Source of the DNA: Deltaproteobacteria bacterium
GTDB taxonomy: Bacteria; UBA10199; SBBF01
DNA: 15,300 nucleotides
NCBI GenBank assembly: GCA_016207765.1
Contig: JACQOY010000029.1
Location: forward strand, 1-15,300
Direction of reading: 5' to 3'
This document shows, piece after piece, positions 3,531 to 13,600 of the stretch (positions are counted from its first letter, which is position 1; each line of letters starts with the position of its first letter). Position numbers and translations under genes: made by a program. The notes below the pieces were generated by a model. The model searched no databases, was not told the origin of the DNA, and saw only the letters and a list, made by a program, of their open reading frames with translations.

Positions 3531-3818
3531 TTATGGATGGTGTTCGATATTTTTTTCAGCCGATTTCTTTTCTTGGGCTTTTTCCGAAAGCCACACCTTA
3601 ATCAAGGCCTGGTAGGCAATGTCCATTCCCGCCGCGATTCGTTTGATTTGAGTCAGAAGGGGTACGGGAAGCCTGAGAGAAATCGACTGCACCGGCGGTT
3701 CATAAACCAGATTGACCCGGTTTTTTTCCGACAGATCCAATGCCTCGGTGGCATCGTGCTGATCCCAATAGGCTGTCATTTCGTCTTCAGTGGGAGTGTT
3801 TCTTTTTTTCTTCGACAT
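3531..3818 (-). CDS. brnA: BrnA-type antitoxin (CopG-like ribbon-helix-helix)
   Basis: A 95-residue antitoxin of the BrnT/BrnA type II system. The N-terminal half (TAYWDQHDATEALDLSE) is the toxin-contacting, acidic segment. The segment around residues 45-78 (SISLRLPVPLLTQIKRIAA...YQALIKVWLSEK) is a ribbon-helix-helix dimerisation and DNA-binding domain of the CopG-antitoxin type. It is translated from inside the toxin gene: its ATG at 3818 lies 32 bases before the toxin gene ends, with an AGGAG Shine-Dalgarno 5 bases upstream. BrnA proteins normally bind their toxin and autorepress the operon; the candidate operator is upstream of brnT. The toxin-first order is normal for this family. Confidence 0.9.
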   Translation of the reverse strand: MSKKKRNTPTEDEMTAYWDQHDATEALDLSEKNRVNLVYEPPVQSISLRLPVPLLTQIKRIAAGMDIAYQALIKVWLSEKAQEKKSAEKNIEHHP

Positions 3819-4092
3819 ACCAGCTCCTTTCTTTCTGGCTCATCGGTCGGGCACTGATGACTCGCACCCGATCGCCCCTCAAGGTAAAGGCGACAAACAG
3901 CGTTTTTCCGGCGCCTGTTTCGCCAAAACAGACATACCGCTTTTCCTCTTCCGAAGAATGACGGGTATCCGGATAAATCAACGGTTTGCCAAAAAATACC
4001 TCCTCGGCCTCCTCGCAGGTAACAGTGTGTCTTTTAAGGTTTTTATTTTTGTTGCCCTCATCCCAGTCAAACCCGGAATATGTTATATCCAT
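3787..4092 (-). CDS. brnT: BrnT-family ribonuclease toxin
   Basis: A 101-residue toxin with a RelE-like fold, which in characterised members acts as a ribosome-independent RNase that stops translation. Family signatures are the FDWDEGNKNKNLKRH element (residues 8-22), EEAEEVFF (27-34), the DTRHS turn (42-46), and the C-terminal GDRVRVISARPMSQKERSWY stretch (73-92), whose Arg/Ser/Arg residues are the usual catalytic candidates. The length is only slightly above the family norm, and no disabling change is seen, so it is probably functional. The gene starts 9 bases downstream of an excellent sigma70-type promoter, which implies an almost leaderless transcript. An alternative downstream start would cut into the conserved FDWDE block, so the ATG at 4092 is retained. 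Confidence 0.92.
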   Translation of the reverse strand: MDITYSGFDWDEGNKNKNLKRHTVTCEEAEEVFFGKPLIYPDTRHSSEEEKRYVCFGETGAGKTLFVAFTLRGDRVRVISARPMSQKERSWYVEEKKKHSH

Positions 4093-5025: not shown

Positions 5026-5574
5026 GTGGCGGCCATTGTCAAAAAAGAAGAGAACGAAAAGCTCCTTCAGGCCCGGCAGAGTTTCATCGAGGGGGCGGGG
5101 CGGATTTCGGCCTCGCTCCTCGGCATTTTGAACCGCGTTTGCGGTCAGATTTATGCGCTCCTTTTTCTCTCTCCCGAGCCGTTGTCGCTGGACGATATTG
5201 TGGCGGAGCTGGGGGTATCGAAGGGAAATGTGAGCGTCAACATCCGCGTTCTGGAGGACTACAAGCTGGTAAAAAAAGTTTGGGTGAAGGGGACGCGAAA
5301 GGATTATTATCAGGCGGTCGACACGCTCCCCACCAAGATCATCAAGGAATTTTTTGAAAAAATCAGGCGGAATATCCGCGACAGTCTCGACATGATCGAT
5401 GATTGTTGTGCAACAGTCGATGGAGCGAAAGGGGTCGAGAGTGAGGCCCAATTCATGCTTGAACGCCTGAAACGGATTCAGTCCTTTTATAAAAACGCCA
5501 ATTTTCTCTTCGAAGCGATCTATTCCGGCCAAAAAATAGATACGAGTGTTTTGAAAACAGTGATTGAAGGATAG
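5026..5574 (+). CDS. GbsR/MarR-family transcriptional regulator
   Basis: A 182-residue cytoplasmic DNA-binding regulator of the GbsR (COG1510) branch of the MarR superfamily. The N-terminal helix FIEGAGRIS (residues about 20-28) leads into a winged helix-turn-helix: QIYALLFLSPEPLSLDDIVAEL, then the recognition segment GVSKGNVSVNIRVLEDYKLV and the wing VKGTRKDYYQAVD. The conserved SKGNVSxNxRxLE and GxRKDYY are the strongest evidence. The C-terminal half is helical, likely for dimerisation and effector binding. Start is a GTG at 5026 without a clear ribosome binding site. Known relatives respond to choline or other small molecules; the ligand here cannot be told. The TTTAGA-type dyad in front of the next gene is a plausible target. 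Confidence 0.88.
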   Translation: MAAIVKKEENEKLLQARQSFIEGAGRISASLLGILNRVCGQIYALLFLSPEPLSLDDIVAELGVSKGNVSVNIRVLEDYKLVKKVWVKGTRKDYYQAVDTLPTKIIKEFFEKIRRNIRDSLDMIDDCCATVDGAKGVESEAQFMLERLKRIQSFYKNANFLFEAIYSGQKIDTSVLKTVIEG

Positions 5575-5698
5575 CAAACAAAGAGGGCCTCTTTGGACTG
5601 AGCAATTTTCGTTCCCGCCAGCCACATCCGCCGGCGAGACAGCTCAACTCATGGCGGCTTACGAAAATTGCGAAGGGAAAGGGGCTCTCTTTGTTTGC
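5574..5698. repeat. Long imperfect inverted repeat (about 125-base hairpin)
   Basis: It begins at the last base of the regulator's stop codon. The outer arms 5574-5594 and 5678-5698 pair over 21 positions (19 Watson-Crick, 2 G-U in RNA); the first 12 (GCAAACAAAGAG) are perfect. After a small internal loop, 5602-5612 (GCAATTTTCGT) pairs perfectly with 5661-5671. A third stem of 7 bp (5617-5624 with 5652-5658, one bulged A) encloses a 27-base loop. No T-run follows, so a simple intrinsic terminator is unlikely. The nested symmetry suggests a miniature inverted-repeat element, a REP-like sequence or a structured RNA. Confidence 0.8.
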
Positions 5699-5714
5699 GA
5701 AGTGATGAATTTTG

Positions 5715-5743
5715 TTGACACCCCCGTCTCCTTTCTGTACAAC
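5715..5743 (+). promoter_or_regulatory. Candidate promoter of the radical SAM gene
   Basis: A perfect TTGACA (5715-5720) and TACAAC (5738-5743) are spaced by 17 bases; transcription would start near 5750, giving a leader of about 90 bases. A second, weaker candidate (CTAACA at 5748-5753, TATATT at 5771-5776, also 17 apart) would start inside the dyad at 5782-5801. Confidence 0.55.
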
Positions 5744-5781
5744 CACCCTAACAAAAACGAAGTAAATTCATATATTTAGAA

Positions 5782-5801
5782 CGTTTAGAAAACTCTAAAC
5801 G
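5782..5801. promoter_or_regulatory. Operator-like dyad upstream of the radical SAM gene
   Basis: CGTTTAGA-AAAC-TCTAAACG is a perfect 8-bp inverted repeat with a 4-base centre, 36 bases before the start codon. A further TTTAGA copy lies at 5775-5780. It sits downstream of, or at, the predicted transcription starts, a place from which a repressor could block expression. The GbsR/MarR-type protein encoded just upstream is the natural candidate to bind it (inference). Confidence 0.55.
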
Positions 5802-5837
5802 CTCATCAATCCGGACAATAAACACAAGGAGGATGCC

Positions 5838-7724
5838 ATGGGGAAAGCCCTAGAAACAACCTTAGCTAAAACAGCCAAAGCGGCATGGAGCGTGTTCCAA
5901 GCCGTGAATAAACGGATTCCGGAAGGGAAACCCTTTCAACCGGTATGGGCCGATCGTCCTCTTTTAAAAAGTTATGAAAAGGTAAAGCCCCCCCTTGGCT
6001 GGCCGCGTGAAACCGATTCTCTTTGCCCCGACTGTGTCAAGGAAACGCGGGCCAAAATCATCAATGGGGAAATCAGCGTTGATGTTCTTCGCAACGAAAA
6101 GCCGGCCGAAATCAAATCCAAAATTATCGAGCGGGACGGCAAGATCTGGATGGTGAAGGATTGCCTCAAACATGGTCATTACGAAGATGTCATGGCCATC
6201 GATCCAAAATTTTTGCAACGGATGGAAGACCTCTATCCGGGAAGTGATTTTTACGCCCCGCACAAAATCCGCGAGCATGGCAGTTCCTCCATTACTTACG
6301 GCCGCGGTTCCGTGATGACTATCGACCTGACCAATCGCTGTAACATGATGTGCGACCCCTGCTTCATGGATGCCAACCAGGTCGGCTATGTACACGAACT
6401 CAGCTTGGGCGAGGTGAAGAAAATACTGGATGATTCCATTTCGGTCAAACCGAGACGCCAGATGTCGATCCAGTTTTCCGGCGGGGAACCGACCATTTCG
6501 CCTCATTTTATCGAGTCCATCAAGTATGCCAAGGAAGTCGGCTACTTTTCAGTTCAATGTGCCACCAATGGAATCCGCTTTGCGGAGGATCCCGAGTTTG
6601 CAAAGAGGGCCTATGAAGCCGGTTTGCGGATCGCCTATCTCCAGTTTGACGGAGTCGGGAATGAAAACCATGAGCACCGCAAAATCGGAAACCTCTTCGA
6701 CATCAAGCTCCGGGCGATGGAAAATCTCTACAATGCCGGGATCGACATTGTGCTGGTTGTTACCATCGTCAATACGGTGAACGACCACCAGGTGGGGAGG
6801 ATCATCGAATTTGCCGTTCAGAACAGCGATAAAATCAGCTTTATTTCGTTTCAACCGGTATCGTTTACCGGACGCGACGAAGATATCACCCCGGAATTGC
6901 GCCATGCCCAGCGCTATACGCTGTCGCATCTGGCCCACGATGTGAAAAAACAGACCGGCCTCACCGAACCGCTTCGCGACTGGTTTCCGCTTTCAGCTGT
7001 TGCCCCGTTTTCCGATTTTACCGACATGATGAAGGGCCCTGACCAGGATTGGGGAACGCTGAAGTGCGGCTGTCATCCCAACTGCGGTGTCGGAACGGTT
7101 CTGTTAGTCAATAAGGAGACCAAAGAATTTGCTCCTCTGGGCGAAATGCTCGATATCGAGCAGTTTCTCAAAGATGTCACCGTTATCAACGACGCGGCCC
7201 GGGGCCCTAAATCGTCTAAAGCCCAGATGGCGATGGCCATTTTGAAGAATTACAATCCGGCCAAGGCGCCGAAAGGTTTCGAGCTCAAGGATCTCATTCA
7301 AAAGTTCGACAAACAAAGCGGGGGCTCGATGGGGGGGGAATACGGTGTCGGGGCTGAGCGCAAAAAAGACAAATGGCTTTTCATGTTCGTTGCCGGCATG
7401 TGGTTTCAGGATCTCTGGAACTACGATTTCCGCCGAACGGAACGCTGCATTATTCCCTACGGGACGCAGGAAGGGGAGATATCCTTCTGTGCCTACAACA
7501 CGGGCGTCGGCTGGCGTAACATTGTCGAAAACATGTACAAGGTGTCGAGTGTCGGGAAATGGTACAAAGAGAAGGGGCGGCATCCTGTTTATGCCGATGG
7601 CAAGCCGGTGGACCTGCCCAGTTTTGACAATACGCTCAAGGTGCCTGGGCTTCCCAGTTACGATGCCGCCGCCAAGGCCTATAGCCGAAAAGTAGCCGTT
7701 GAAAAAAAGGTCGTGAACGCCTAG
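5838..7724 (+). CDS. Radical SAM protein, MJ0619/Tes (tetraether lipid synthase)-like
   Basis: A 628-residue radical SAM enzyme resembling COG1964/MJ0619, the family containing archaeal tetraether lipid synthase Tes and bacterial membrane-spanning-lipid synthases. Features in order: a rubredoxin-like N-terminal metal site (Cys63-PD-Cys66, then Cys109-LK-His112-G); the radical SAM motif Cys168/Cys172/Cys175 in DLTNRCNMMCDPCFMDAN; the GGEPT SAM-binding loop (215-219); and candidate auxiliary-cluster cysteines at 410, 412, 416, 537 and 551. A start with AAGGAGG 5 bases upstream is convincing. Tes joins lipid tails of two membrane lipids by C-C bonds; here the neighbouring CDP-alcohol phosphatidyltransferase supports a lipid substrate. 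What this protein joins, or whether it is another COG1964 enzyme, cannot be decided from sequence alone. Confidence 0.72.
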   Translation: MGKALETTLAKTAKAAWSVFQAVNKRIPEGKPFQPVWADRPLLKSYEKVKPPLGWPRETDSLCPDCVKETRAKIINGEISVDVLRNEKPAEIKSKIIERDGKIWMVKDCLKHGHYEDVMAIDPKFLQRMEDLYPGSDFYAPHKIREHGSSSITYGRGSVMTIDLTNRCNMMCDPCFMDANQVGYVHELSLGEVKKILDDSISVKPRRQMSIQFSGGEPTISPHFIESIKYAKEVGYFSVQCATNGIRFAEDPEFAKRAYEAGLRIAYLQFDGVGNENHEHRKIGNLFDIKLRAMENLYNAGIDIVLVVTIVNTVNDHQVGRIIEFAVQNSDKISFISFQPVSFTGRDEDITPELRHAQRYTLSHLAHDVKKQTGLTEPLRDWFPLSAVAPFSDFTDMMKGPDQDWGTLKCGCHPNCGVGTVLLVNKETKEFAPLGEMLDIEQFLKDVTVINDAARGPKSSKAQMAMAILKNYNPAKAPKGFELKDLIQKFDKQSGGSMGGEYGVGAERKKDKWLFMFVAGMWFQDLWNYDFRRTERCIIPYGTQEGEISFCAYNTGVGWRNIVENMYKVSSVGKWYKEKGRHPVYADGKPVDLPSFDNTLKVPGLPSYDAAAKAYSRKVAVEKKVVNA

Positions 7725-7830
7725 TACTACGATAATTTAGTTTTTACTTAGCGAAGCGTTTGTAAAAACAATATTAATAAGTACTTGTGCCATTCAAAAA
7801 GAAAAAAAATTAAATGGTCAAGGTACTAGG
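7720..7830. repeat. Nested inverted repeats between radical SAM and phosphatidyltransferase genes
   Basis: The 118-base gap is bounded by perfect 8-bp inverted repeats, CCTAGTAC (7720-7727, overlapping the stop codon) and GTACTAGG (7823-7830). Inside are two hairpins. The first has perfect arms GTTTTTAC (7740-7747) and GTAAAAAC (7762-7769) around a loop containing GCGAAGC, known as an unusually stable DNA mini-hairpin. The second pairs 7781-7794 with 7813-7826 (GTAC, TTG/CAA and CCATT/AATGG blocks with small bulges) around an A-rich loop. The whole is AT-rich compared with flanking genes. It could be a small non-autonomous element or a processing/attenuation site; no U-tract typical of an intrinsic terminator follows. 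Confidence 0.6.
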
Positions 7831-7842
7831 GTCGTTGCCTCG

Positions 7843-8616
7843 ATGAATTTCAATTCCATCTGGATCTCTCTGGGGCCTCTCATCGGTTTTAATGTCCTCC
7901 TTTTAAGCACTGTCCTTGTTTTTCGTCCCGTCTACCGAAAAAGAGACCGTCTCAAAGAAGTTGAAGAACGCCCTGCTTCCAGGTTGTTGAACCGTTGGAT
8001 GAGGGAATACTGGCTTTGGCTGACCGATCCCTTTGTCCGCCTTTTTGTCCGCCTTGGCATTTCGCCCAATACACTGACAACCATCGGTGTTGTTATTGGT
8101 TTTATATCGGGTTATTTTTTCTGGAAAGGGCACTTTGGTTTGGGGGGTTGGCTCATGATCTTTGGAGCGACCTTCGATACTTTTGACGGCCGGGTCGCCA
8201 GGGCCACAAACCGTGAAAGCAAATCGGGGGCTTATTACGATTCGGTGATGGACCGGATTTCCGAAGGGACGGTGTTTATCGGCTTGGCGCTTTATTATCA
8301 CAATCACTGGGCCCTCTGGATTGTGCTGGCGGGGCTTCTTGGCGCTTTTATGGTCAGTTACACGCGGGCCAAGGGGGATTCGAACGGCATCAGTTACGAG
8401 GGGGGTTCCATGCAACGGCCGGAACGGATCGTTTATCTCGGCGTCGGCGCCATTTTTGCCCCGGTGTTCGGGCATTTTCTCAAGTTTCTTTCACCCAATA
8501 TCAACGATTATCTCTATCTTCTTCCTCTTGGGTTTGTCACCCTTATGTGCTGGAGCACCTCGTTTAATCGGATACATACCGTGATGAAACGCCTCGACGA
8601 AAAATCGGGAGGCTGA
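7843..8616 (+). CDS. CDP-alcohol phosphatidyltransferase family protein
   Basis: A 257-residue integral membrane enzyme that swaps the CMP of a CDP-activated lipid for an alcohol head group. The family signature DG-x2-AR-x8-G-x3-D-x3-D is complete: Asp112, Asp115-Gly116, Ala119-Arg120, Gly129, Asp133 and Asp137. These aspartates bind the divalent metals. It has an N-terminal hydrophobic segment (about 7-28), an amphipathic linker, and several further membrane segments (about 76-95, 100-112, 141-168, 195-215, 220-240). The head-group acceptor (glycerol phosphate, inositol phosphate, serine or other) cannot be told. The ATG at 7843 has no good Shine-Dalgarno. Lying next to the Tes-like gene on the same strand, it may supply phospholipid for that enzyme; this is inferred. 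Confidence 0.9.
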
Positions 8617-10651: not shown

Positions 10652-13600
10652 TTATTCCCTCTTGTCATCACCGGCTGATTCTCCCACACCAAAGTAAATA
10701 CAGTCGGGATGATGAAAGACAATTGCCGAAACGCTGGCGTCGGGGTCCATCATGAATCCTTCCGTCAGTTGGATGCCTATTTTGTCCGGCTGGATCAATT
10801 TCCAGATTCCCGTTTGATCCTCCAGATTGGGACAGGCGGGGTAACCGAAACTGTAGCGCTTGCCGCGGTATTTGGCGGTGAAGCGATCCTTCATGGTCAT
10901 CTCCTTTGGGTCGGGAAAGCCCCAGTCCTCGCGGATCCGTCGATGGAGCCATTCGGCGCACCCCTCGGCCGTCTCGAGGGCTAGGATGTTCAAGGTATGG
11001 GATTTGAGATAGTCCCCCTTGTTTTTCCATTCCTCCGCGATTTCGCGGATTCCGAAACCGGCGCTGACGGCAAACAAGACGACATGGTCCCTGAAGACAC
11101 CCCTCTCCCTGACCCTCTCCCCCAAGGGGAGAGGGGAATTATTTCCCCCCCCTCCCTTGAGGGGAGGGGGTTGGGGGGAGGGTGGCAAGATAAAATCGCT
11201 AAGACAAAGGCCGTCCTCTTTTCGCTGACGGTGAAAATGGAAGGTGTGTACCGGTTTTTTGCCGTTGGGGTCGAAAAGATGAATCGAATTCCCATCGCCC
11301 TCCGCCTCAAAAAACTGCCAGACCGATTTTACTTTCATGAATTTGAGCGCTTCCTCTTTTACTTTTTCAACTTGTTCGTCCAAAGCGATTGCCTTTGGGT
11401 CGCGATCGGCCAGTTTGTTTTCGAAATTTCCCTTGAAGCCCAAGTGGCGGACATAGAGCATCAGGGGATTGATGTAGCCCCAGAGTTCTTTGAGTTGGGG
11501 GACATCCCGGACTTTTCGATCCAGATAAGGGGCCGGGGGGGTCGGGATGTCGAGGCGGACTTTTTTGCTTCGGATGGTGGATTCGGGGGAGAGGGGGCCA
11601 CCGGAGGGGGCCATCCCTACCGGTTCCGCCATTTGTTTGCGGTACTCCTCCTCCAATTCCTTTTTCATCGTCGGATCCCGCAATTTATTGGCCAAGGCAA
11701 GACCGGTCATGGCATCTTTCGAGTATAGAACCAGCTGTGTGTAGCTTGGGGCGATTTTTTTGCGGGTGAACTGATCCGAAAGGGCGGCGCCGCCGACAAG
11801 AATCGGGATTTGAATGCCGGCCTCCTTCAAATCGCCCGCAGTAATGGTCATTTGCTGGGCCGATTTGACGAGCAGGCCCGAGAGGCCGATGATATCGGGC
11901 TTGTGCTCATGATAGGCCTTGATGAGCTCCTCGGGAGGGACCTTGATCCCGAGATTGATCACTTCGTAACCGTTGTTTTTTAAGATGATCTCAACCAGAT
12001 TCTTGCCGATGTCATGGACGTCCCCTTTTACGGTCGCCAAAAGGATCTTCCCTTTGGTGGTCACCTCCGATTTTTCCATGAATTGTTCCAAATGGCCCAC
12101 CGCCGCCTTCATCGCCTCGGCCGATTGAAGCACCTCGGCCACAATCAGTTCATTGTTGTTGAAGAGACGTCCCACCTCGCTCATTCCAGCCATCAGGGGG
12201 CCGTTAATGATGGCGAGCGGCTTCGCGCCTTCTTTTAATTTCAGATCCAGATCGGCGATGAGGCCGTCTTTGGTTCCCTGGATGATGTATTGGGCGAGGC
12301 GTTCGTCCAGCGGCAGTTCCGCTGTGGGTTTTTTTTCTTTTTTAGCGGCGCCACGATAAAATTCGGTGATGACGGTAATGTTGGTTTTATTGACAGCTAT
12401 TTTTTGTTCCCTTGTCTGTTTGCGCCAATCGGCAGGCATGGTCGGATCGGACGATCGATTAAGCAACAAGTCCTCGGCCAATTTGTGTTCCTTTTCGGGA
12501 ATGGAGGCGTATCGCTCCAACTTTTCGGCATTCACAATCGCCAGATCGAGCCCGGCCTTGGTGCACTCATAAAGAAATATCGAGTTCACCACCTCCCGGG
12601 CCGCCGGGGGGAGGCCAAACGAGACATTCGAGATGCCCAGTATCGTACGACAGTTTGGAAAGTTTTGCCGGATGAGCCGGATTCCCTCGATAGTCTCCAC
12701 AGCGCCGCCGATGTAATTTGCATCACCAGTCGCACAGGGAAAGACGAGCGGGTCAAAAATAATATCGGTTTCAGGTACGCCATATTTCTTTGTCAGCAGG
12801 TCATAAGAACGTTCGGCAATCGCCAATTTTCGTTCGCGCGTGAAGGCCTGAGCTTGGACCGGATCTTCATCGATACAACCAACCACCACTGCCGCTCCAT
12901 ACTTTTTTATTAAAGGCACAACGTGCCCGAACTTTTCCTCTCCATCTTCCAGATTGATGGAATTGATGATTGATTTTCCCTGACAATAGGTGAGCGCCTT
13001 TTCAACCGCCTCCGGATGGGTCGTGTCGATCATGATCGGCGCCTTGATCTTGCGGATCAGTTTTTCGTAAAAGGGTTCGATGTCTGGCAGTTCATCGCGG
13101 TCTGTGCTTTGGAGACAGACATCGACCACTTGGGCGCCGTTTTTGACCTGCCGCCTGGCGATATCGGTGGCTTCGTCCCATTTTTCGCCATTCACCAAAT
13201 CTTTGAAAAGGCGCGATCCGATAACGTTCGTTCGCTCGCCGACGAGCAGAGGCCGATTGTCCGCGGTGGCCTCGACTAGTTCGATACCGGAGAAGAAGAC
13301 ACGGTTTTTGGAACCATGCGGCGAGCGGCGTGGTTTTTTCCCCTCGGTCATCTGCGCGATGGCGCGAATGTGATTGTGTGTGGTTCCACAGCAGCCGCCG
13401 ACGATGTTGATCCATCCGTTGTCAATGAATCGCTCCAACTGCCTGGCCAGCGATTCCGGTGTTTCGAGGTATTTACCGTCTTCGTTGGGGAGGCCTGCGT
13501 TGGGATAACAGGAGACAGCCGGATCGGCCAGCTCATGGATCGTCCTGATATGGTCGGTCATGAATTCGGGTCCGGTGGCGCAGTTTAGACCGATGGCCAG

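Follow-up and report, generated by a model that had tools for sequence, protein, structure and literature searches.

The window, a stretch of 15,300 nucleotides from a Deltaproteobacteria bacterium (GenBank assembly GCA_016207765.1, contig JACQOY010000029.1), carries a gene for a radical S-adenosylmethionine (SAM) enzyme resembling archaeal Tes. The enzyme belongs to a separate bacterial clade that has the Tes fold and three of the four Tes metal sites, and in the class of the window genome (the home class) genes of this clade share an operator-like element with true tes genes. We consider it somewhat probable that this clade joins the tail ends of two phospholipid acyl or alkyl chains into a membrane-spanning phospholipid of the diabolic or iso-diabolic type, switched by a GbsR-type regulator. 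A sequence-only reading had proposed a lipid-joining cassette of regulator, radical SAM enzyme and phospholipid head-group transferase. The open reading frame (ORF) list and the family scans (Pfam and NCBIfam models with curated cut-offs) recovered all three genes on the plus strand (Table 1), and their order is retained in class relatives beyond chance. The cassette lies on contig C166 of our numbering, in an assembly of 1.89 Mb, 256 contigs and 84% completeness.

The enzyme matched PF23545 and PF04055, and its best NCBIfam model was Tes (NF045702). The Tes fold extended over 476 residues, spanning the whole core, far ahead of the other listed chains, and the closest solved structure was an archaeal Tes (29-31% identity to archaeal Tes structures); the Tes-like character read from the sequence is borne out by the fold. 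Within its own genome the enzyme's next-best matches reached 25 and 17 bits. Relatives were called window type when they scored >500 bits against the window protein in BLASTP, and true Tes when they scored >400 bits against a home-class true Tes (L104) or >340 bits against archaeal MJ0619. Conservation was read from an alignment of 212 window-type proteins (101 from loci and the window together, and 111 from a protein search), 120 MJ0619 relatives and 17 bacterial true Tes. The 212 rows are distinct sequences; where a genome had duplicate loci, the extra ones had been taken out manually ahead of the census and tree-building. The 111 protein-search rows are the best hits listed, hence near relatives, and the 120 rows are the best hits listed to MJ0619, archaeal wherever the source is named.

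Four metal sites are described for MJ0619 (PMC9433317): a rubredoxin-like iron, the SAM cluster, and one auxiliary cluster towards each terminus. The N-terminal cluster, bound by C73, C77, C80 and a His, lies at the surface, and its role is unclear; the C-terminal cluster has a labile Met439 and is proposed to store the substrate radical. The cysteine layout claimed for the window enzyme is present (CPDC and CLKHGH, CNMMCDPC, and late cysteines 416, 537 and 551). The rubredoxin-type Cys3His site was kept in 212/212 window-type proteins, and so was each of C416, M521, C537, C551 and Y541, which correspond to MJ0619 C338, M439, C455, C470 and Y459. Judging from this conservation, C338, C455 and C470 would be the cysteines of the C-terminal cluster. 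By contrast, the four-metal layout of MJ0619, implied by that reading, was not found: the second CxxxCxxC motif is missing and three sites only are left. The C73, C77 and C80 columns held Cys in 0/212 window-type proteins, compared to 119/120 of the best MJ0619 relatives and 17/17 bacterial true Tes. In the region that replaces the Tes cluster motif (residues 139-158) the three cluster cysteines are absent and one His is retained; the His at the MJ0619 H83 column was kept in 212/212 window-type proteins. We assume that His83 is the fourth ligand of the N-terminal cluster in MJ0619. The window protein exceeds MJ0619 in length at three places: 54 additional residues precede the first CxxC, 22 are inserted between the CxxC and CxxH of the rubredoxin-type site, and 41 extend the C-terminus.

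Archaeal enzymes are reported to conserve Tyr459 strictly, although it is dispensable, and activity stays robust in the MJ0619 variants Y459F, Y459L and M439A (PMC9433317). The kept Cys ligands therefore outweigh the kept Met and Tyr; Met439 and Tyr459 were dropped as proof of coupling chemistry, and our confidence was lowered slightly. The five true Tes of the home class (L103-L107) have Gln or His at the Tyr459 position. Amphipathic helices were compared with shuffled sequences. For an N-terminal helix, considered as a membrane anchor, the best 18-residue window was matched by 392/5000 shuffles and the whole helix by 97/5000, and the tests disagree. At the presumed second lipid pocket, shuffles as amphipathic as the helix numbered 87/5000 for residues 483-493, 351 for 440-453 and 4369 for 456-470.

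A promoter-like sequence and an operator-like element precede the enzyme gene (Table 1). The TACAAC box is a reading by eye that is not in the scan output, while TTGAC was located 57-66 bp upstream of the operator in 20/20 regions (the window and 19 class genomes). Twenty of the 23 class genomes with the window type were examinable; the other three begin or end too near the gene. The core TTTAGAAYGTTT was present with at most one mismatch in 17/19 class upstream regions, 15 of them exact (shuffles: mean 0.06, maximum 2), and with at most two mismatches in 20/20 after the addition of genome L143. A 34-column profile was built from 20 sites and scanned against 327,434 bases of home-class DNA (L133-L152 plus the window), chosen around Tes-family genes and including the training sites. 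Each of the 27 hits that scored above 11 stands immediately before a Tes-family gene. The window site scored 42.7 (40.7 leave-one-out); leave-one-out scores of the profile sites were 20.9-41.5, and 1500 shuffled regions reached at most 8.4. Four of the five home-class true tes genes, all outside the profile training, carry the operator (32.0, 22.5, 21.9 and 17.5), three of these with TTGAC at 62-63 bp; the profile scan did not find it at the fifth, L107. With one mismatch TTTAGAAYGTTT also occurs away from Tes-family genes (window 713 on the minus strand, L140 1970, L150 6430 and 17499), so that the profile is more specific than the core by itself. The common promoter and operator indicate that the window type and true tes occupy one regulatory slot, and the operator on the true tes genes is the strongest new evidence for equivalent jobs of both types in the home class.

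The regulator matched PF12840 (30.9 bits) and PF12802 (29.2 bits), both over the cut-off; its best NCBIfam model was CudC, of the GbsR type (64.9 bits over residues 11-169, cut-off 218). In 8 genomes, the window genome among them, a homologue immediately precedes the enzyme gene. It is 3.8-7.4 kb from the enzyme gene in G028, G033 and G023 and adjoins the head-group gene in G042; none was seen in the DNA retrieved from G002, G008, G013, G018 and G020. The GbsR-type regulator probably acts at the operator, switching expression. The lipid route had been called inducible from the sequence, which fits a regulator beside the gene and a dedicated operator; the identity of the regulator bound there, and of its signal, is inference. 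Alternatively, the element might act in the 5' leader RNA, through hairpin control: it is palindromic, and with TTGAC as the -35 box it would fall in the transcribed leader. We regard this as improbable. The spacing of the half-sites is fixed (GTTTA-N8-TAAAC, or GTTCA-N8-TGAAC in one true tes locus), as fits a dimeric protein site; a GbsR-type gene stands next to the element, and no Rfam model matched the window at gathering scores.

Table 1. Features of the regulator, enzyme and head-group genes and of the intergenic region (window positions).
Feature	Position	Strand	Basis or remark
GbsR/MarR-type winged-helix regulator, 182 aa	5026..5574	+	GTG start
Promoter-like TTGACA-17-TACAAC	5715..5743	+	sequence, spacing
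Operator-like element CATATATTTAGAACGTTTAGAAAACTCTAAACGC: tandem TTTAGAA (9-bp period) and GTTTA-N8-TAAAC inverted repeat	5769..5802	+	
Perfect palindrome CGTTTAGA-AAAC-TCTAAACG inside the operator	5782..5801	+	one match in the window, none in 200 shuffles
Tes-like radical SAM enzyme, 628 aa	5838..7724	+	
Rubredoxin-type site C63, C66, C109, H112	6024..6173	+	alignment
Residues 139-158, HG(S/T)S-x-I-x-YGRG replacing the Tes CPxDCGxCxxH cluster motif	6252..6311	+	
SAM-cluster motif C168xxxC172xxC175	6339..6362	+	kept 212/212
C-terminal cluster ligands C416, M521, C537, C551 and Y541	7083..7490	+	alignment
CDP-alcohol phosphatidyltransferase, inositol-phosphate-synthase-like, 257 aa	7843..8616	+	PF01066

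The home class was represented by 46 genomes. A window-type gene (at least 289 bits to the Tes model) is present in 23 and a true Tes (>500 bits) in 5; none has both. The claim of a phospholipid head-group gene next door proved right: it adjoins the enzyme gene in 17/23 window-type genomes (11 on the same strand, 6 tail to tail), compared to 0/5 genomes with true Tes, and in one further genome a fragment of it lies 1.5 kb from the enzyme gene. Its product exceeded the cut-off of PF01066 (66.7 bits). The best NCBIfam models, those of phosphatidylinositol- and archaetidylinositol-phosphate synthases, were all below their cut-offs (NF052561, 135.7 bits; NF040950, 135.1; NF045883, 117.4). An orthologue of at least 198 bits is present in 43/46 home-class genomes, with or without a Tes-family gene, and inositol-phosphate synthase (PF01658) in 41/46, the window genome included; the head-group gene is therefore best read as the general phosphatidylinositol (PI)-phosphate synthase of the class. 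The head-group gene is not exclusive to the cassette.

Other observations were made around these genes. The metagenome-assembled genome (MAG) Deltaproteobacteria bacterium RIFCSPHIGHO2_02_FULL_40_28 (L004 in G076, with match coordinates identical to those of G006) belongs to the same taxonomic order as the window genome. In G005, which has no such enzyme, a 61-residue Tes-like remnant stands beside an intact head-group gene (L142, 9810-9992); it is a case of loss of the Tes-like gene. In G042 one gene joins a PI-phosphate-synthase-like part to a type I phosphodiesterase domain (PF01663; L145:6889-9216). Equally long ORFs (760-784 aa) in G014, G024, G027, G029, G039 and G044 suggest the same fusion, G042 being the one scanned. 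Besides the head-group gene, the commonest flanking clusters were QueG-like (15 loci, three of the home class) and ABC-transporter ATPase-like (12), and an HpnH-like radical SAM gene stands beside the Tes-like gene, at a median of 61 bp, in seven loci beyond the home class (L010, L018, L037, L045, L048, L056 and L068); these three names come from reading the sequences and not from scans. A PlsA/Ger-like gene (PF09989), considered as ether-lipid partner, occurs in 22/46 home-class genomes including the window genome (12/23 with the window type, 4/5 with true Tes, 6/18 with neither); it showed no clear association and was rejected. In the window genome this gene encodes a 1202-aa protein with CoA-activase (BcrAD_BadFG) and DUF2229 domains (L133:3415-7023, minus strand, on G000:C73), with a 534-aa partner that matched no Pfam or NCBIfam model (L133:1702-3306, minus strand). 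This pair is reminiscent of the PlsA/Ger ether-lipid reductase and may be taken as a candidate only.

A tree of 68 rows, 29 of them window type, was rooted with two TrsS-like proteins, whose rows are very long. The window-type rows formed one clade (support 100/100), the archaeal rows a separate clade (99/95), and the window type was attached to the bacterial branch (99/96). In this tree the window protein falls into neither the archaeal nor the bacterial set of true Tes but into a clade of its own on a long stem, which does not support the placement expected from the sequence. In approximately unbiased (AU) tests neither the window type as outermost Tes branch (p 0.096) nor its grouping with archaeal Tes (p 0.10) was rejected, nor was a single clade of bacterial true Tes (p 0.42).

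The Tes model matched 141/247 Acidobacteriota genomes at E<=1e-60, 28 of them over the cut-off. By class, it matched 145/151 genomes in that of Acidobacteriaceae ZG23-2 (15 with true Tes), 73/78 in that of a Pyrinomonadaceae genome (5 with true Tes) and 45/80 in that of a gp6 genome (1 over the cut-off). We take these groups to be Terriglobia, Blastocatellia and Vicinamibacteria, respectively. Hits below the cut-off are nearly all window type by score band; among the matches listed, and with the weak band assumed to be window type, the counts are approximately 138-143/151, 71-73/78 and 44/80. A band of acidobacterial matches at approximately 270 bits had been considered a possible paralogue; this was discarded when 5/5 fetched proteins (class of G078) were window type. 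Thermotoga maritima, which makes diabolic acid and served as control, matches the Tes model at E<=0.001 and not at 1e-60. The window type is also found in MAGs labelled Edaphobacter sp. and Terracidiphilus sp. and in a Chloracidobacterium genome (G068) from the class of the Pyrinomonadaceae genome. Three complete myxobacterial genomes have one three-site copy each: Sorangium cellulosum So ceGT47 (G061), Minicystis rosea (G062) and So ce26 (G063).

The published lipid data for these groups, as far as the cited passages go, are as follows. Iso-diabolic acid is reported from Acidobacteria subdivisions (SD) 1, 3, 4 and 6 of the seven surveyed (PMC13274423). Terriglobia comprise SD1, SD3 and SD2, and iso-diabolic acid amounts to 11.8-30.4% in six strain columns of the Edaphobacter paper (PMC11354219) and to 26.8-49.2% in five strain columns of the Occallatibacter paper (PMC12935467). 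Chloracidobacterium, placed in Blastocatellia, contains it as well (PMC12816986).

That one type excludes the other holds in the home class but is no general rule, as shown by acidobacterial genomes that have both (G069, G070, G152, G200, G444 and G399). In the ZG23-2 class at least 10 genomes have both among the matches listed, and in 4 of them the genes are 0.2-5.7 kb apart (same strand at 245 bp in L186 and at 3.4 and 5.7 kb in L178 and L179; divergent at 835 bp in L187). Such close pairs are a further association with Tes, yet hint at divided tasks.

Such a division of tasks would agree with the alternative that carries most weight, namely that the window clade modifies lipid tails by another radical reaction: an intramolecular cross-link, ring closure to a macrocycle, or insertion of sulphur at the C-terminal cluster. 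The Tes fold and the cluster ligands are the same, but the stem is long and one cluster is lost; moreover, MJ0619 and MA_1114 are reported to make macrocycles, and MJ0619 to give a sulphur-bearing lipid at limiting SAM (PMC9433317, PMC8941075). We nevertheless consider this reading rather unlikely, since in the home class the types replace each other (23 vs. 5 genomes, 0 with both, of 46) behind a common operator, favouring the same task, and since some coupling enzyme has to form the iso-diabolic acid of classes in which the window type is the commonest Tes-family protein. It is less likely still that the substrate is no membrane lipid at all (a pterin, quinone or peptide, for example) and that the lipid neighbours are accidental. 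Databases call some relatives 7,8-dihydro-6-hydroxymethylpterin dimethyltransferase, TrsS-like proteins have the same N-terminal region and radical SAM core, and adjacency of a head-group gene that is near-universal in the class could be inherited linkage. However, the pterin annotation of MJ0619 is described as not corroborated and superseded by lipid coupling (PMC9433317), the adjacency survives strand flips, and the operator is common to true tes. Very improbable, finally, is an ordinary Tes derived from archaea and making isoprenoid tetraethers. The closest solved structure and the unrejected grouping with archaeal Tes would agree with such an origin; its own clade, apart from the archaeal one, the absence of the N-terminal cluster cysteines and a score below the Tes cut-off argue against it.

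Tail joining by the window clade has to be weighed against several results. The Tes model gave the enzyme 345.3 bits, and its cut-off of 450 was not reached. Every window-type protein checked has lost one of the four metal sites, and the stem of the clade is 2.3 changes per column; lost site and very long stem together fit a changed substrate. The conservation of Met439 and Tyr459 is less telling, because the MJ0619 variants remain active. Furthermore, 18/46 home-class genomes have neither type. None of the 74-75 regions scanned upstream of the L007-L083 loci, which come from Acidobacteriota, Myxococcota and other groups, contained the operator. The lipid neighbour is conserved in the home class, but no conserved lipid neighbour was seen outside it: flanking-gene clusters of 99 loci, some genomes repeated, showed none at L007-L083, and a conserved lipid neighbourhood beyond the home class was given up. 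Distribution and lipid phenotype were matched by class or genus, not by strain; approximately half of the gp6-class genomes have the window type, which is also present in Sorangium, Minicystis and 9/112 Myxococcota (Tes model at 1e-75, 0 over the cut-off). Solibacter usitatus, with two Tes homologues, is reported to make branched glycerol dialkyl glycerol tetraethers (brGDGTs), iso-diabolic acid being undetected (PMC10087280).

Substrate, product and mechanism of the window enzyme we infer as follows. SAM would be cleaved at the SAM cluster, and the 5'-deoxyadenosyl radical would abstract a hydrogen from the chain end of a finished phospholipid. The radical carbon would then bind to a sulphur atom in the C-terminal [4Fe-4S] cluster and stay there until a second chain radical attacks it, forming the C-C bond by a route proposed, on evidence, for archaeal Tes. 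In the home class some of the substrates may be phosphatidylinositol-type lipids supplied through the neighbouring gene; MJ0619 is reported to have bound two bacterial phosphatidic acids, and its head-group pocket would accept inositol (PMC9433317).

Several known systems come close. Archaeal Tes, or GDGT-MAS (MJ0619, 7tol/7tom; NF045702), has the N-terminal [4Fe-4S] cysteines that the window protein lacks, and forms a different clade. For bacterial Tes homologues the same tail-joining was proposed already in 2022: Zeng 2022 lists 456 of them and proposes brGDGT synthesis (PMC8941075), as Halamka 2022 does for S. usitatus (PMC10087280), and the window protein would probably fall in the homologue set by their cut-offs. 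The passages cited of these two papers do not separate the two types, although bacterial Tes homologue covers at least two here, the N-terminal cluster Cys being present in 17/17 true Tes and 0/212 window type. Lloyd 2022 notes bacterial homologues in organisms not known for biphytanyl chains (PMC9433317), and the passages cited treat the acidobacterial coupling enzyme as not yet identified (PMC10087280) and the activity of bacterial Tes as unconfirmed (PMC11868695). Mss of Thermotoga and Clostridia is a radical SAM enzyme coupling tails to (iso-)diabolic acid, as proposed for the window protein, and its AlphaFold models are described as having the Tes catalytic architecture (PMC13274423, PMC11767167). 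T. maritima Mss is unlikely to be of the window type because no Tes-model match was found at 1e-60. TrsS-like radical SAM proteins (NF045646, 219 bits) have the N-terminal zinc ribbon and radical SAM core in common with the window protein; the two used as outgroup score only 143 and 77 bits against it and differ in the C-terminal ligands. In titles, abstract starts and passages of the literature, supplements excepted, we found no description of the three-site clade, its operator or an activity. New here are the three-site variant, its operator and its commonness. The window protein should not be filed as Tes, since a defining metal site is absent; it most likely works like Tes.

Some features of the window lie outside these genes. 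A toxin-antitoxin-like BrnT/RHH-like pair, named by reading the sequence (3531-4092, minus strand), and a ParE-type toxin (PF05016; 4589-4843, plus strand) stand just upstream of the cassette. Between the regulator and enzyme genes, inverted arms GCAAACAAAGAG and CTCTTTGTTTGC at 5574-5585 and 5687-5698, approximately 100 bp apart, are perhaps a small repeat element. A MetH-like ORF on the minus strand has a low-complexity insert, PPSPQPPPLKGGGGNNSPLPLGERVRERG, at 11099-11185, which looks like an in-frame insertion of a repeat element.

The three-site clade could be the missing iso-diabolic acid enzyme of aerobic Acidobacteriota, the source, under a dedicated GbsR-type operator, of regulated, perhaps inositol-headed, membrane-spanning phospholipids in the uncultured Deltaproteobacteria-like class of the window, and a lineage that dropped the N-terminal cluster on a shift from ether isoprenoids to ester iso-fatty acyls; this wider view is tentative, and we hold it to be possible. 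The clade, which retains the working clusters of archaeal Tes, is near-universal in two acidobacterial classes that include producers of iso-diabolic acid; this makes the proposal directly testable. A candidate coupling enzyme matters for brGDGTs, of which Acidobacteriota are a presumed source, as these lipids serve as proxies of past temperature. HG(S/T)S-x-I-x-YGRG against CPxDCGxCxxH is a marker that separates two groups lumped as bacterial Tes, and the operator is a cis element for finding regulated tail-joined lipids in uncultured bacteria. The clade is, in addition, a natural experiment on the purpose of the N-terminal cluster of Tes.

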